Shown here: positions 1,684 to 30,345 of the stretch, piece by piece
Layout: every line of letters begins with the position of its first letter
Position numbering within the stretch: the first letter of the stretch is position 1
Source of the DNA: Ignavibacteriales bacterium
GTDB taxonomy: Bacteria > Bacteroidota > Ignavibacteria > Ignavibacteriales > SURF-24
Length of the DNA: 32,547 bases
Reading direction: 5' to 3'
Assembly (NCBI GenBank): GCA_026390815.1
Contig: JAPLFH010000029.1
Location: 1 to 32,547 of the forward strand
Program-made: the position numbers and the translations under genes
Notes under the pieces: generated by a model
Told to the model about the DNA's origin: nothing
Database searches by the model: none
The model's input: only the letters and a program-made list of their open reading frames with translations

Positions 1684-3516
1684 ATGAAAAATTTACCAAT
1701 CCGAATAGTGTTTTTATTTTTGATAATAATAAGCACATCATTTACAGGAACAGTTGTGGCACAAACTACTCAGTCTTCACAGACAGTCTTCGTATCAACT
1801 ATAAATGCTTTACTGGAAGGTTCATCTGATACTTCCAAAGCTACAGCAACAGCGTGGGCAATTCTATCCGGAGATAAAACCCAACTAACATATAGAATTA
1901 CTTACGCAAAGCTTACTTCAAAATTTACAGCTTCACATTTTCATTTGGGTTTTCCAGGAACAAATGGACCGGTGGTTCATGCAATTCAATATACCAGAAA
2001 TACAGCCATTGGCAGCTGGACAAATTTACCGGATAGCATTGTTACTGCACTAATAAGAGGGCAAATATATATTAATATCCACACGCAAAATTACCCTGGT
2101 GGTGAAATAAGAGGGCAGTTAAAACCGGTCGATGGTATTCCATTTTTGTTTTCGCCGGAACCCGGACAAGTAAATTCTCCAGATACATCAAAAGCATCTG
2201 GAACAGGTTGGGCTGTCTTAAGCTCTGATGGATCAGTTCCATATCTTACTTATGGAATGACGATAGCCGGATTAACCAGCAATTATACTGCCTCGCATTT
2301 TCATATCGGTGTGGCAACTCAAAATGGCGGAGTGGTTCATCCAATTGCATTTAGTGATAGCTCTGCTTATGGACGATGGGATAATATTTCTGATCAAAAT
2401 GTATTAGCACTTTTAAGAGATGGAATTTACGCAAATGTTCATTCAGCAAATTATCCGGGCGGAGAAATACGTGGACAGCTTATTAAATCCGGAACAATTT
2501 CCTTCTATGCTTCACTTGATGGCAACCAGGAAGTTCCGATTGTAACTACAAATGCAACAGGAACAGCATTGTTTGTTTTGAATGATAGTTTGTCATCACT
2601 TGCTTATAGAATTACTTTTGCCAATCTTCAGGATGGTTTTACTGCTTCTCATTTTCATCTGGGTGCATTTGGTGTTCCTGGTGGAGTTGTTAAACCGATT
2701 AATACATTTAAGGGAAATACGGCAGATGGTATTTGGAGTGGAATTCCAGATAGCTTGCTGGTTAGTTTGGTTAAAGGTAATCTCTACGTTAATATTCATT
2801 CCAAAGCGCATGGAGGCGGAGAGATAAGAGGGCAAGTATGGCTGAATGAAGGTATAGCATTTATTGCATCATTAAATAGTGCACAGAGCGGACAATCGGT
2901 TTCATCTTTAGGTTCAGGTACCTCCTGGCTTTCATTGGTTGATGATACATTAAAATTCCAGATAACATTTGCCGGATTAACTTCTGCTTATTCATCTTCG
3001 CATTTTCATCTTGGTGCTACAGGAGTTAATGGAGGAGTTGTTCATCCAATTGCATTTACGGATAGCACAACAAATTCTTTTTGGGCTTCTTTAGATAATT
3101 CTTCTCTTAGCGCATTGGTAAACAAAAATTTATATATAAACATTCATACGGCAAATTATCCGGCTGGTGAAATAAGAGGACAAGTTTTACCATCAACTTT
3201 CGAATCTGCACACAGTGTTACATTCGTTAGTGATGAAAATTCTTCAGTCATATCAAATTATAAATTAAGTCAGAATTACCCGAACCCATTTAATCCATCA
3301 ACTACTATTAATTTTTCAATTCCCCAAAATAGTTTTGTTACAATTAAAGTATATAATAACATTGGTAAGGAAGTAACAACTTTAGTTAATGAACAAAAAC
3401 CAACGGGTAATTATAATGTGGTTTTTAACGGAAATAATCTTGCAAGCGGAGTTTATTTTTATAGAATGATTGCGGATGGAATTGTTTATACAAAAAAATT
3501 AATGCTGCTTAAATGA
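1684..3516 (+). CDS. Secreted protein with four CHRD domains and T9SS sorting domain
   Basis: This 610-residue protein is predicted to be exported and handed to the type IX secretion system. Residues 1-27 are a signal peptide (hydrophobic FLFLIIISTSF, then VVAQ). Four CHRD repeats of about 120 residues follow. Each has a [TS]xSHFH[LI]G motif (at about 83, 203, 321 and 438), a VV[HK] element about ten residues later, and a closing N[IV]H...GEIRGQ motif (ending near 145, 265, 384 and 500). Residues about 526-610 are a typical type A sorting domain: NYPNPFNPSTTINFSI, then NLASGVYFYRM and a basic tail. The role of bacterial CHRD domains is not established; they occur in surface and matrix proteins. 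The gene has a strong AAGGAG site and appears monocistronic. Confidence 0.9.
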   Translation: MKNLPIRIVFLFLIIISTSFTGTVVAQTTQSSQTVFVSTINALLEGSSDTSKATATAWAILSGDKTQLTYRITYAKLTSKFTASHFHLGFPGTNGPVVHAIQYTRNTAIGSWTNLPDSIVTALIRGQIYINIHTQNYPGGEIRGQLKPVDGIPFLFSPEPGQVNSPDTSKASGTGWAVLSSDGSVPYLTYGMTIAGLTSNYTASHFHIGVATQNGGVVHPIAFSDSSAYGRWDNISDQNVLALLRDGIYANVHSANYPGGEIRGQLIKSGTISFYASLDGNQEVPIVTTNATGTALFVLNDSLSSLAYRITFANLQDGFTASHFHLGAFGVPGGVVKPINTFKGNTADGIWSGIPDSLLVSLVKGNLYVNIHSKAHGGGEIRGQVWLNEGIAFIASLNSAQSGQSVSSLGSGTSWLSLVDDTLKFQITFAGLTSAYSSSHFHLGATGVNGGVVHPIAFTDSTTNSFWASLDNSSLSALVNKNLYINIHTANYPAGEIRGQVLPSTFESAHSVTFVSDENSSVISNYKLSQNYPNPFNPSTTINFSIPQNSFVTIKVYNNIGKEVTTLVNEQKPTGNYNVVFNGNNLASGVYFYRMIADGIVYTKKLMLLK

Positions 3517-17844: not shown

Positions 17845-18795
17845 CTATTCAATGGAAGTCAAATTTTTATAAGCTTCATCGAATTCAATTAGTAATTGCT
17901 GAAATAATTCCTCAACAGTCGGAATATTTTTTATCAACCCGGCGCCTTGTCCTGCTTCCATCATTCCCTCGTTTTCGTCTCCTTCAAAAATGCCAAGCCG
18001 TTCTCTTTTCTTGCCGAGTAATTCTTTCAGTTCTTCTTCGGAGGCACCTTTTTTTTCAACTTCAAGAATTCGTTTTGTAAATTCATTCTTAAGAAGGCGC
18101 ACCAATCCAATTTTTTTCAGGATTAAAGTTGTGTCATTGTCTTTAGCTTCAACAATTTTCTTTTTATAATTCGGATGGGCTGAAGATTCCATAGTTACCG
18201 CGAACCTTGTTCCCATTTGTACACCTTTAGCACCAAGCGATAGTGATGCAAGAATTCCTCTTCCATTAACAATTCCACCAGCAGCAATCACCGGAATTTT
18301 AACTGCATCTGCGAGCATGGGAATTAAATTGAAAATTGTTATTTCATCAATTCCGTTATGTCCGCCTGCTTCAACTCCTTCGCCAACAACGGCATCGCAG
18401 CCTACGCTTTCAGCTTTAATAGCGTACTTTGTCGAGGGAACAACATGAACCACTTTAACTTTCTTGCTTTTTAACTTATCAATAAATTTTCCTGGGTGAC
18501 CTGCCGATGTAAAGACTATTTGAATATTTTCATCAATTACCGTTTGAACTAATTCTGAGGCATCTTCTCTGCGCAAGGGAATGTTCACTCCAAAAGGATT
18601 TTCAGTCGCCGCTTTGCATTTTTGAATGTGTTCTTTTAGTAGTTCAGTTTTCATAGAACCGGAACCAATTAAACCCAATCCACCGCAATTAGAAACAGCG
18701 GAAGCCAAGCGCCAACCGGAAACCCAAACCATTCCAGCCTGTATTACTGGATATTTAATATTGAATAATTCTGTTACTTCATTACTGATTTTCAT
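17845..18795 (-). CDS. Nitronate monooxygenase / FabK-like FMN enzyme
   Basis: This 316-residue TIM-barrel flavoprotein belongs to the nitronate monooxygenase / 2-nitropropane dioxygenase group. Seen motifs are YPVIQAGMVWVSG at the N-terminus, NCGGLGLIG, NPFGVNIPL, the phosphate-binding IPVIAAGGIVNGRGI and GAKGVQMGTRF, and the active-site segment GEGVEAGGHNG with H146. The C-terminus carries GMMEAGQGAGLI, common in this group. The family includes nitronate-oxidising enzymes and the enoyl-ACP reductase FabK; sequence alone does not separate them here, so substrate is left open. The ATG start lacks a clear ribosome binding site. No fatty-acid synthesis genes are adjacent, so FabK function is not supported by context. 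Confidence 0.82.
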   Translation of the reverse strand: MKISNEVTELFNIKYPVIQAGMVWVSGWRLASAVSNCGGLGLIGSGSMKTELLKEHIQKCKAATENPFGVNIPLRREDASELVQTVIDENIQIVFTSAGHPGKFIDKLKSKKVKVVHVVPSTKYAIKAESVGCDAVVGEGVEAGGHNGIDEITIFNLIPMLADAVKIPVIAAGGIVNGRGILASLSLGAKGVQMGTRFAVTMESSAHPNYKKKIVEAKDNDTTLILKKIGLVRLLKNEFTKRILEVEKKGASEEELKELLGKKRERLGIFEGDENEGMMEAGQGAGLIKNIPTVEELFQQLLIEFDEAYKNLTSIE

Positions 18796-26303: not shown

Positions 26304-28187
26304 TTAAATCCCGTTCTTTATTTTTTCCAGTTCTTCCCATCTATTATAAAGCTGCTGAACTCTTTCTTTTGCATCTTCCAATTGCTTATTAAGTTCGTTT
26401 GTTTGTACTGCGTATTTTTCATAAAAATCTCGTGAAGAAAAAATTCCTTCAATTCTTTCTATTTCTGCCTCGGCATTTACAATATCATCTTCAATCATTT
26501 CAAGTTCTTTGTTTTCTTTCCAGCTTAACTTTTTGGTTTTTATTTTAACCCGCGAATCTTCTTTTTTGACTATTTGTCCAACTGCGTCATTCTTTACAAC
26601 CTGCAATTTTCTTTTTTCAATGTAATAATCATAATCGCCCTCGCTGTAATAAATATCCCCATTCCCTTCCAATGCAAGAATTCCGTTACATACACGGTTC
26701 AAAAAATATCTGTCGTGGCTTACAACTACAACACAGCCTTCAAAAGCTATTAGCGCTTCCTCAAGTATCCGTAATGTTGGAAGATCGAGATCGTTGGTGG
26801 GTTCATCAAGAAGAAGAAAGTTGCCGCCGTTCTTTAAAATTCTGGCAAGTGTTAACCGGCTCTTTTCACCTCCGGAAAGTCTTCCAACTAATGTATTAAT
26901 TCTGTCATCAGTAAAAAGGAATCTTTTCAGATATGTCCAGATGCTTAATTGAAGTTTTCCAAACTTAATGAAGTCGCTGCCTTCGCCAATGGCTTGAATA
27001 ACTGTATCTTCATCGTTTAAAAGCAGGCGTGCCTGATCGATATAATTAAATTCAGTTCTCTCTCCTAATTCAATTTTTCCCGTTGTTGGTTTTAAATTCC
27101 CCAGAATGATTTTTAACAGAGTTGTTTTGCCAACTCCATTCTTTCCAACCACTCCAAGTTTTCCTCCGGCTTCAAAATTGAAATTGAAATGTTCAAAAAG
27201 ATTTTTTTCGCCAAGCCTAATGCCAACATCTTTTAGCTCAATAACTTTATTCCCTAACTTTTCCGGTGTGGGAATGATTAGATCAACATCTAATTCTACT
27301 ACAGAATTTTCCTGTTCCGCAACTTCATTATATTTATCCAACCGGCTTTTAGCTTTGGTTCTACGGGCGCGTGGTCCTCGCATAACCCAGTCAAGCTCTC
27401 GTCGTAGGAAATTTTGCCGCTTTCTTTCCTCAGCTTCTTTAATTGCTTTTCGTTCAGTTTTATTTATCAGGTAATCAGTATAATTTCCGTTGTGGGAAAA
27501 GAAAATCCCGGATGATAATTCTACAATTCTGTTTGCTATTCTATCCAGGAAATAACGATCGTGAGTTACAAAAATGCAGGTGCCTTTGTATTCAGCTAAA
27601 AAATTTTCTATCCACTCAATCGAATTTACATCAAGATGGTTCGTTGGTTCATCAAGAATTAATAAATCAGGATTTGCTATTAATGCGCGGCACAAAGCAA
27701 CTCTTCTTTTTTCTCCACCGGATAAAGTGGTTATATTTCTTTCACGTTCAGGAGCATTTAAAGATTTGATAAGAATATCAATCCGTTTGTCAAGCGTCCA
27801 TCCATCTGCCTGTAAAATCTTTTCTTCCAGAATGTGCTTGTTTGGTGAATCAAACGGTGTTATTTCATATTCTTCAATTAGATTTAATATATGCAAAGCG
27901 CCATCTAAAATATTTTCGTAAACATTTTTAGATTCGTCCAGGGTAAACTCCTGGGAAAGGAATCCGACCATCAAATCTTTTCTCTTTGCAATTTTACCGG
28001 AATCAGGGATTAGTAATCCAGATACGATTTTTAAGAAGGTAGATTTGCCAGCACCATTTCTACCAACCAACCCAATCCGGTCTTGTTCGTGGATAGTTAG
28101 TGAAGCTTTATCAAGAACAACTTGCTCACCGAAACGAACTTCCAGTTCCAATGCAGTTAAAATTACAGGATTTATATTATTAGCCAT
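26304..28187 (-). CDS. uup: ABC-F family ATPase (Uup-like)
   Basis: This 627-residue protein has two ATP-binding cassettes and no membrane domain, the ABC-F pattern of ribosome-associated ATPases. Cassette 1 has Walker A GRNGAGKST (42-50), signature LSGGEKRR (155-162) and Walker B LLILDEPTNHLD (175-186). Cassette 2 has GKNGVGKTT (348-356), LSGGEKSR (437-444) and DEPTNDLD (461-468). The linker contains the basic GPRARRTKAKSR. A C-terminal coiled coil (about 560-625; EDIVNAEAEIERIEGIF, LEDAKERVQQLYNRWEEL) favours Uup over EttA, which lacks such a tail. The start ATG is followed at once by the first cassette. The closest subfamily is an inference. Confidence 0.9.
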   Translation of the reverse strand: MANNINPVILTALELEVRFGEQVVLDKASLTIHEQDRIGLVGRNGAGKSTFLKIVSGLLIPDSGKIAKRKDLMVGFLSQEFTLDESKNVYENILDGALHILNLIEEYEITPFDSPNKHILEEKILQADGWTLDKRIDILIKSLNAPERERNITTLSGGEKRRVALCRALIANPDLLILDEPTNHLDVNSIEWIENFLAEYKGTCIFVTHDRYFLDRIANRIVELSSGIFFSHNGNYTDYLINKTERKAIKEAEERKRQNFLRRELDWVMRGPRARRTKAKSRLDKYNEVAEQENSVVELDVDLIIPTPEKLGNKVIELKDVGIRLGEKNLFEHFNFNFEAGGKLGVVGKNGVGKTTLLKIILGNLKPTTGKIELGERTEFNYIDQARLLLNDEDTVIQAIGEGSDFIKFGKLQLSIWTYLKRFLFTDDRINTLVGRLSGGEKSRLTLARILKNGGNFLLLDEPTNDLDLPTLRILEEALIAFEGCVVVVSHDRYFLNRVCNGILALEGNGDIYYSEGDYDYYIEKRKLQVVKNDAVGQIVKKEDSRVKIKTKKLSWKENKELEMIEDDIVNAEAEIERIEGIFSSRDFYEKYAVQTNELNKQLEDAKERVQQLYNRWEELEKIKNGI

Positions 28188-28512: not shown

Positions 28513-30345
28513 ATGTTTTTAAACTTTGGTAACGTAATGAATAAAATAAATGACCATAAATTTCATATACCGGTACTTGGTGTTGGCTTTTCTGTTGATG
28601 CACCGCTTAAAGTATCAAAGTATGGTATTTCTTCTGTTATGTCTTTGGTTGATGATACTTTGATGGAAAAATTGCGAAAGCATTATTTAACCAAGCTTAA
28701 TAAGCAATATATACCAATCACTGATAAAGATTCAGATTCGAGAGCACACAGAATTACCGCATACCTTAATATGGTAAATCAAATGGTTAAAGATCAGTTT
28801 GAATCATTAAAGAATTCAGCTTTTATAGTCGGCAGCGAAATAAGCAAATACTTTGATATGCTCCCGGATTTTTCCGGACTTAAAGCAAAGTATAATGAAA
28901 TGATTATCTCTAAAGATGAGACTGTTATACAAAAGCTGCAAAACTGGCTGCGCGAAAATATTACGCATGGATCAATTGATGTTAACATTATGACCAAAGT
29001 TGATAACACAAATTATACACCAGAGGGCATAGCACTTTCCTCTGAATTCAATGATGCTCATGCGGCTTTAAGAGGTTTTGCTTTAAGTGAATTGGAAAGT
29101 TCAATAGTTTTCTCTGCTGGAATGAGCCCACGGTTATTCAGTTATATGGAAACATTTAAAGATTTCTATCCGCTTCCTGACGGTAGTTTTAAAAAGAAAA
29201 TAATTATTAAAGTAAGTGATTTTCGTTCGGCAAATATCCAAGGTAAATTTTTAGCTAAAAAAGGGCTTTGGGTTTCAGAGTATCGGGTTGAATCCGGTTT
29301 AAACTGCGGTGGACATGCATTTGCAACAGATGGGATGTTGTTAGGACCTATCCTTGAAGAATTTAAAAATAGAAAAGAGGAATTGTTTAATTCAGCCCGG
29401 GATTTATATCTACTGGCGCTTGAACAAAAACAAATTACTTTCGATTCTTCCAAACTGGATTTTAGCATTACCGTTCAGGGCGGAGTTGGGAAATCCTCTG
29501 AACAGGAATTTCTGCTTCGTCATTATCCGGTAAAATCAGTTGGCTGGGGGAGCCCGTTCTTGTTAGTTCCAGAGGTTATGAACGTAGATGAAGATACTTT
29601 GCAAAAACTTAGCGTTGCAGGCGAAAAAGATTTTTATTTAAGTGATGTTTCACCATTGGGTGTTCCATTTAATAGTTTGCGTGGAAATGGTAAAGATCTT
29701 GAAAAAATTGAAAGAGTGAAAAACGGAAAACCCGGAAGCCCCTGTCCTAAAAAATTTCTGCAATCAAATAAAGAGTTTTCTGAAAAAGCGCTCTGCATAG
29801 CTTCGATTACTTACGTTAATAAAAAAATAAATGACTTAAAAGAGAAGTTTACAGAACCTGATGAATTCCAGAAAGAATTTGATAAGGTAATTGATAAAGT
29901 TTGTTTGTGTGAAGGATTGACAGCTTCTGCACTAATTGTAAATGGAATTGAAACGCCTAAACAAAGTCAGGCTGTTGCAGTATGCCCTGGACCGAACCTC
30001 GCGTACTTTTCTAAAATAACCGGACTAAAGGAAATGGTTGATCATATTTACGGAAGAATTGATTTGATTACTGAACCGGACAGACCAAATATGTTCATAA
30101 AAGAATTATCCATCAATATTGATTACTTGATAAAAAAAGCGGAAGAAAATATAAAACCAATTTCTATAAAAGCAGAAGCACTATTGAATTTATTCAGCAA
30201 AAACCTGTTGGAAGGAATTAACTATTATAAAAAATTAATTCCGGAAATAATTGAAGAAACCGAAAAAGTTAAACAGAGAATGAATGAGGATTTAGAAGCG
30301 CTTGAGCAAAAACTTCTATCTTATTCTTTTGTGATTGCTCAATAA
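28513..30345 (+). CDS. Uncharacterised 610-residue protein, TIM-barrel flavoenzyme-like features
   Basis: I do not recognise a named family. The opening KFHIPVLGVGFSVDAPLKVSK and ISSVMSLVDD look like the substrate-facing start of FMN TIM-barrel enzymes, and FSITVQGGVGKSSEQEFLL followed by VGWGSPFLLVPE resembles the phosphate-binding end of such barrels. Six cysteines are placed in motif-like contexts: C265 (GLNCGGHAF), C411 (GSPCPKKF), C428, C464 and C466 (KVCLCEGLT), and C491 (AVCPGPN). This could be a metal or redox site. The C-terminus (about 530-610) is helical and charged. No signal peptide, so cytoplasmic. ATG 28513 or ATG 28537 (with GGTAACGTA upstream) are both possible starts. The helicase gene follows after 30 bp. 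Confidence 0.6.
   Translation: MFLNFGNVMNKINDHKFHIPVLGVGFSVDAPLKVSKYGISSVMSLVDDTLMEKLRKHYLTKLNKQYIPITDKDSDSRAHRITAYLNMVNQMVKDQFESLKNSAFIVGSEISKYFDMLPDFSGLKAKYNEMIISKDETVIQKLQNWLRENITHGSIDVNIMTKVDNTNYTPEGIALSSEFNDAHAALRGFALSELESSIVFSAGMSPRLFSYMETFKDFYPLPDGSFKKKIIIKVSDFRSANIQGKFLAKKGLWVSEYRVESGLNCGGHAFATDGMLLGPILEEFKNRKEELFNSARDLYLLALEQKQITFDSSKLDFSITVQGGVGKSSEQEFLLRHYPVKSVGWGSPFLLVPEVMNVDEDTLQKLSVAGEKDFYLSDVSPLGVPFNSLRGNGKDLEKIERVKNGKPGSPCPKKFLQSNKEFSEKALCIASITYVNKKINDLKEKFTEPDEFQKEFDKVIDKVCLCEGLTASALIVNGIETPKQSQAVAVCPGPNLAYFSKITGLKEMVDHIYGRIDLITEPDRPNMFIKELSINIDYLIKKAEENIKPISIKAEALLNLFSKNLLEGINYYKKLIPEIIEETEKVKQRMNEDLEALEQKLLSYSFVIAQ

Follow-up and report, generated by a model that had tools for sequence, protein, structure and literature searches.

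The window, the whole 32,547-nucleotide stretch of Ignavibacteriales DNA analysed here, carries on its forward strand an open frame of 610 codons (28513–30345) that encodes every motif quoted in the first-pass annotation. The ORF is real, and the gene is ordinary in its placement. The ATG at 28537 (M9) is probably the start in preference to 28513, because conservation sets in around residues 9–15; the gene would then span 28537–30345 (+) and encode 602 aa. Immediately downstream, 30 nt away and on the same strand, begins the ORF of a DEAD-box helicase. On the other side lies an ABC-F ATPase of the EttA/Uup kind (26304–28187, −), transcribed away from the gene. Elsewhere in the window, 1684–3516 (+) encodes four stretches of CHRD domain with a T9SS sorting tail, a protein that by chance is also 610 aa long, and a DDE transposase (97–1290, −) sits close to the window edge.

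In Pfam and NCBIfam, no model matched the window protein at cut-off. The nitronate monooxygenase (NMO) model PF03060 gave no match to it at E ≤ 10 and was absent among the matches listed for 55 family members, which covered 25 of 75 families in one search (25 of 45 in the other). Searching the PDB by sequence returned nothing for the window protein and just chance-level apolipoprotein helices for the family profile. Weak KIX and apolipoprotein matches to the window protein were read as helix or chance similarity, as were, among the matches listed, PRK00420.1-2 in 39 of the 55 members (best E 6.7e-5) and hydroxylamine reductase in 6 of the 55 (best E 0.0017). We recognised no description of a ~600-residue family of this kind in the open-licence papers searched.

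Structure prediction and a fold search were both proposed as checks by the first-pass annotation. An AlphaFold2 model built from 55 sequences (pLDDT 90.0, pTM 0.90) has the strand order of a TIM barrel, after which come a Cys-rich domain and a tail of three helices. Among 350,542 PDB chains, Foldseek placed chains of FabX at the top, from E 6.6e-10 (9lt5) to 2.5e-9 (7e1q). FabX (HP0773 of Helicobacter pylori) is a decanoyl-ACP dehydrogenase/isomerase that carries FMN and a [4Fe-4S] cluster. Behind it came the DfnA/MlnA ER domains (trans-acting enoyl reductases), PfaD, FabK and NMO. VIA-align likewise ranked FabX first (7e1q: Z 22.4, rmsd 3.2, 330 of 366 residues, model 2–507 on FabX 12–363), ahead of FabK (Z 20.6, rmsd 4.0, 284 residues), NMO and PA1024-type chains (Z 19.6 and below) and PfaD (Z 19.4), with a lead over FabK of less than 2 Z units. 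The last aligned pair in the structural alignment (507 with 363) matches that of the sequence alignment (505 with 361). Folded alone, the C-terminal part (pLDDT 80.7, pTM 0.65) found helix-bundle look-alikes at Z up to 12.6, flagged as a possibly common arrangement, and FabX was absent among the matches listed. The predicted fold is thus an FMN-type TIM barrel of the nitronate-monooxygenase/FabK kind, and the closest solved fold to the model over barrel and C-terminal domain is H. pylori FabX. These results bear out the FMN/TIM-barrel oxidoreductase features seen earlier in the sequence, and the protein is indeed about twice the size of ordinary NMO and FabK proteins. The companion suggestion of a radical-type enzyme gained no support, and no radical-enzyme signature was found.

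For the conservation analysis, we reduced 118 loci to 96 family frames and 92 distinct stop-free proteins, of which 91 were aligned (one contig-cut frame was dropped); frames were read on the forward strand only, and the 96 therefore miss reverse-strand loci. Invariant positions number 79 of 610. The cysteines of the window protein number six (C265, C411, C428, C464, C466 and C491), were picked out from the start as motif-like, and are without exception invariant across the aligned homologues (91 of 91); individual homologues carry 6 to 13 cysteines, with only these six columns filled in every one. Also invariant are H268, N158, E260 and the motifs QGGxG, GW, SP and CPGPN. The loop first quoted as GGVGKS is the counterpart of the barrel's GG flavin loop: its invariance holds for Q322, G323, G324, G326 and E330, but not for the K and S, which vary.

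These positions fall into an ordered series along the forward strand. Strands 1–2 of the barrel, HIPVLGVGFSVDAPLKV...SVMS (28561–28644), are by model and profile alignment the counterpart of FabX PIFQGGMGVGIS. A mostly helical stretch of ~110 residues (28645–28974) separates strands 2 and 3 in the model, and N158 (28984–28986; invariant 91/91) follows as the counterpart of FabX Asn99, which is reported to contact FMN (PMC8626469). The ESGxNCGGH loop contains C265 (29305–29307), aligned on FabX S179 adjoining FMN, and H268 (29314–29316), which follows the GG pair of strand 6 and is the counterpart of the catalytic His182. Conservation, model and profile alignment place strands 7–8 and the flavin loops at the QGGxG...GW region (29476–29559). 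A Cys-rich domain with extra helices (29668–30066) then matches the [4Fe-4S] subdomain of FabX in structural and profile alignment. Within it, C411 (29743–29745) and C428 (29794–29796) align on the cluster ligands C300 and C320, the invariant C464-x-C466 (29902–29910) lies in a segment longer than that of FabX, and C491-P-G-P-N (29983–29997) aligns on F339-T-G-A-N, which packs on FMN. The three-helix tail of the model occupies 30067–30342.

How far sequence agrees with this mapping was gauged with hhalign, against a set made up of FabX (its sequence identical to the PDB entry), four of its homologues found within the phylum and 58 proteins of the NMO/FabK kind. The family aligned with the combined set at E 5.1e-4 (a single pairwise test) and probability 31%, with the FabX set alone at E 0.0064 and with the NMO/FabK set without FabX at E 0.0023; over all comparisons probability ran from 4.9 to 31% and E from 0.008 to 5e-4. 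The NMO/FabK value resembles those obtained with FabX, and sequence alone therefore does not favour FabX; we treat the profile alignment as weak, supportive evidence. Nor does the window protein reach the 43–44% identity seen in phylum FabX homologues, and a FabX query found nothing in the window genome at 1e-40. In this low-threshold alignment, FabX P18, G25, N99, G180, G181, H182, G220, G221, S273, P274, C300, C320, G341 and N343 are identical in the window protein and invariant in 91 of 91 homologues, while S179 and F339, both FMN contacts, are replaced by invariant cysteines. FabX Q240 falls on G344, and E175 reaches the invariant E260 only with a one-residue shift.

The window protein therefore shares with FabX, as invariant features, the catalytic His, the FMN-site Asn, the GG loops, the SP(V/L)GxP link and the counterparts of C300 and C320. 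It differs in lacking clear sequence similarity, in being ~240 residues longer, with helical inserts and the three-helix tail, and in having Cys at the two FMN-side positions. The cluster site differs as well. In FabX the cluster is reported to be held by C300, C304, C308 and C320, and to be completely lost in all mutants except those of C304 (PMC8626469). Neither C304 nor C308 has a Cys counterpart here: the former falls on F415, which is F, Y or H across the family, and the latter is unaligned. An extra invariant CxC is present instead, and C464-x-C466 may supply ligands in place of C304 and C308. The fold, the superfamily, the invariance of the His and the six cysteines and the absence of Cys at these two ligand positions were all computed directly. 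Because the six cysteines are invariant, an iron-sulphur cluster is likely, although it would be wired unlike that of FabX.

The family is widespread, unnamed and without annotation. Of 59 close genomes sampled, 40 hold a relative; 39 of the 41 matches there span more than 530 residues, one (G001) ends at a contig edge and one (G033) is a 131-residue remnant. Across an even draw over the phylum, 111 of 296 genomes carry a relative (E ≤ 0.001), including one (G322) with a match of only 134 residues, and even within single families the gene occurs patchily. Scanning the named genomes brought up 303 relatives, mostly labelled Ignavibacteria, Bacteroidota or near groups, with a few nominally under other phyla. 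A collection of plasmids yielded zero matches. One genome (G142) has, beside a full-length copy, a second, broken copy at C1:4371176-4372859, in pieces with several stops. The first-pass annotation had suspected an undescribed enzyme family; no Pfam or NCBIfam model matches at cut-off, but the family branches within the nitronate-monooxygenase superfamily, with FabX as its best match in structure, and is therefore not of a wholly new kind.

Gene neighbourhoods were compared at 80 named loci, the best 80 of the 303 relatives. No universal partner gene emerged at these loci, and even the most frequent neighbour clusters occur at no more than 10 of the 80. The proposed cotranscription with the DEAD-box helicase is plausible at the window locus, but a homologous helicase lies within the flanks of only 5 of the 80, which rules out the partnership as a family trait. 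At 8 of the 80 the family gene sits inside a flexirubin-type polyketide cluster. These eight form one clade (support 100), and hence one recruitment event. In each an O-methyltransferase follows immediately 3′, a carboxypeptidase-regulatory-like domain protein is usually upstream, and homologues of DarG, DarH or FlxY are close by as far as the contig extends; according to PMC3992019, FlxY is a 4-coumarate CoA ligase that takes part in making flexirubin. At G586:C156 the same strand also encodes a FabF-type synthase, a DarB-like synthase and an exporter with an acyltransferase part, with three further ketosynthases ~40 kb off. This context, which rests on one recruitment, points to acyl-thioester chemistry.

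As a separate observation, the large flexirubin-type cluster of these Bacteroidales-type genomes (L102, L087 and six similar loci, and G586:C156) also holds a C45 acyltransferase, B12-radical SAM enzymes and a CrtI-like oxidoreductase; its gene content exceeds that of published flexirubin clusters, as far as the sections of PMC3992019 drawn on here describe them. No such cluster surrounds the gene in the window, and a search of the window genome for FlxY found none at 1e-100. Across the phylum, the family is present in 16 of 24 FlxY genomes vs 95 of 272 others (p 0.0035, uncorrected for ancestry). In those 16 the two genes are on different contigs (11 genomes) or 124 kb to 2.5 Mb apart (5 genomes), never close, and the pigment link is therefore confined to one clade.

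We give about even credence to the reading that the window protein is an undescribed FabX-like FMN/Fe-S acyl-thioester oxidoreductase of the nitronate-monooxygenase/FabK superfamily. For such an enzyme we infer a bound FMN, the cluster and its ligands, the direction of reaction, the substrate and the electron acceptor. At the mouth of the TIM barrel, H268 and FMN would remove two electrons, along with two protons, from the alpha and beta carbons of an ACP- or CoA-bound acyl thioester, forming an enoyl product that is perhaps then isomerised. An electron would move on into the C-terminal domain, to a [4Fe-4S] cluster whose candidate ligands are C411 and C428 plus a pair drawn from C464, C466 and C491. 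C265 and C491, predicted beside the flavin, could tune it or join the redox chemistry.

An alternative is that the protein reduces enoyl substrates with NAD(P)H, as PfaD/trans-ER or FabK enzymes do; its cysteines would then serve its structure, through zinc or disulphides, and it would lack an Fe-S cluster. The PfaD/trans-ER and FabK proteins belong to the same FMN TIM-barrel superfamily and follow close behind FabX in both searches (Z 17–21), PfaD is comparable in length at ~500 aa, and the polyketide clade fits such a role. FabX nevertheless tops both Foldseek and VIA-align, with the enoyl reductases the weaker matches, and TIGR02814 (pfaD_fam) has no match anywhere in the window genome. The window protein also aligns with the Fe-S domain of FabX, two Cys ligands included, which according to the FabX study stands where FabK has its NAD(P)H motif (PMC8626469). 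We regard the enoyl reductase as unlikely, though deserving weight.

Superfamily membership would also admit a detoxifying flavoenzyme, nitronate monooxygenase-like or quinone-reductase-like, or else a redox sensor, in either case with no tie to acyl thioesters. A mostly stand-alone gene with unconserved neighbours and a patchy distribution would suit such a role, but FabX outscores the NMO and PA1024-type chains (Z 22.4 vs 19.6 and below) and in one clade the gene is part of a polyketide cluster, so that we find it rather improbable. Nitronate monooxygenase (PF03060) has the superfamily fold in common with the window protein, and the PF03060 proteins of relatives are ~315 aa long and do not have its Cys domain. 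A canonical member is encoded in the window itself at 17845–18795 (−; PF03060 E 6e-69), ~10 kb from the FabX-like gene, and the two proteins are distant relatives by fold.

Fatty-acid genes bear on a further possibility, a housekeeping maker of unsaturated fatty acids that functionally replaces FabX where a genome has none of FabA, FabX and the desaturases. At E ≤ 1e-40, FabX occurs in just 2 of the 296 phylum genomes, neither with the family (a different class yielded FabX homologues in 3 of 198 genomes); FabA is above cut-off in 0 of 49 relatives' genomes, and at 1e-10 a PF00487 desaturase is missing from 24 of the 111 genomes with the family. Desaturases nonetheless co-occur with the family instead of excluding it (87 of the 111 genomes with the family vs 86 of the 185 without it; p 6e-8 by Fisher's test, uncorrected for ancestry), and the family is therefore no plain stand-in for them. 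With a desaturase in the window genome itself, a patchy distribution within families and replacement weakened by the desaturase, FabX and FabA occurrence, we consider this role improbable. Separately, a gut Bacteroidales protein ~40% identical to HP0773 has been reported as FabX, its expression in B. theta being described as beneficial under ceftriaxone (PMC11300592); judged by identity it is a true FabX, outside the 600-residue family.

Returning to the FabX-like oxidoreductase, a fuller version of that reading, which we hold to be doubtful, makes the whole Bacteroidota-centred family an FMN/[4Fe-4S] acyl-thioester desaturase/isomerase. Its cluster would be re-wired, with two FabX-type ligands plus the new CxC, and C265 and C491 would flank the flavin; the enzyme might use an acceptor other than oxygen, make double bonds without oxygen, and have been recruited to aryl-polyene pigments in one lineage. 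The FabX study of 2021 describes the [4Fe-4S] cluster as lacking in every other family member then characterised (PMC8626469). If the FabX-like assignment is true, flavin and iron-sulphur wiring of acyl chemistry would be commoner than thought, with a second, abundant branch bearing a different cysteine set beside FabX. A gene that stands unannotated in more than a third of the sampled phylum genomes would gain a name, and the introduction or shifting of double bonds in acyl chains by these bacteria would become testable.
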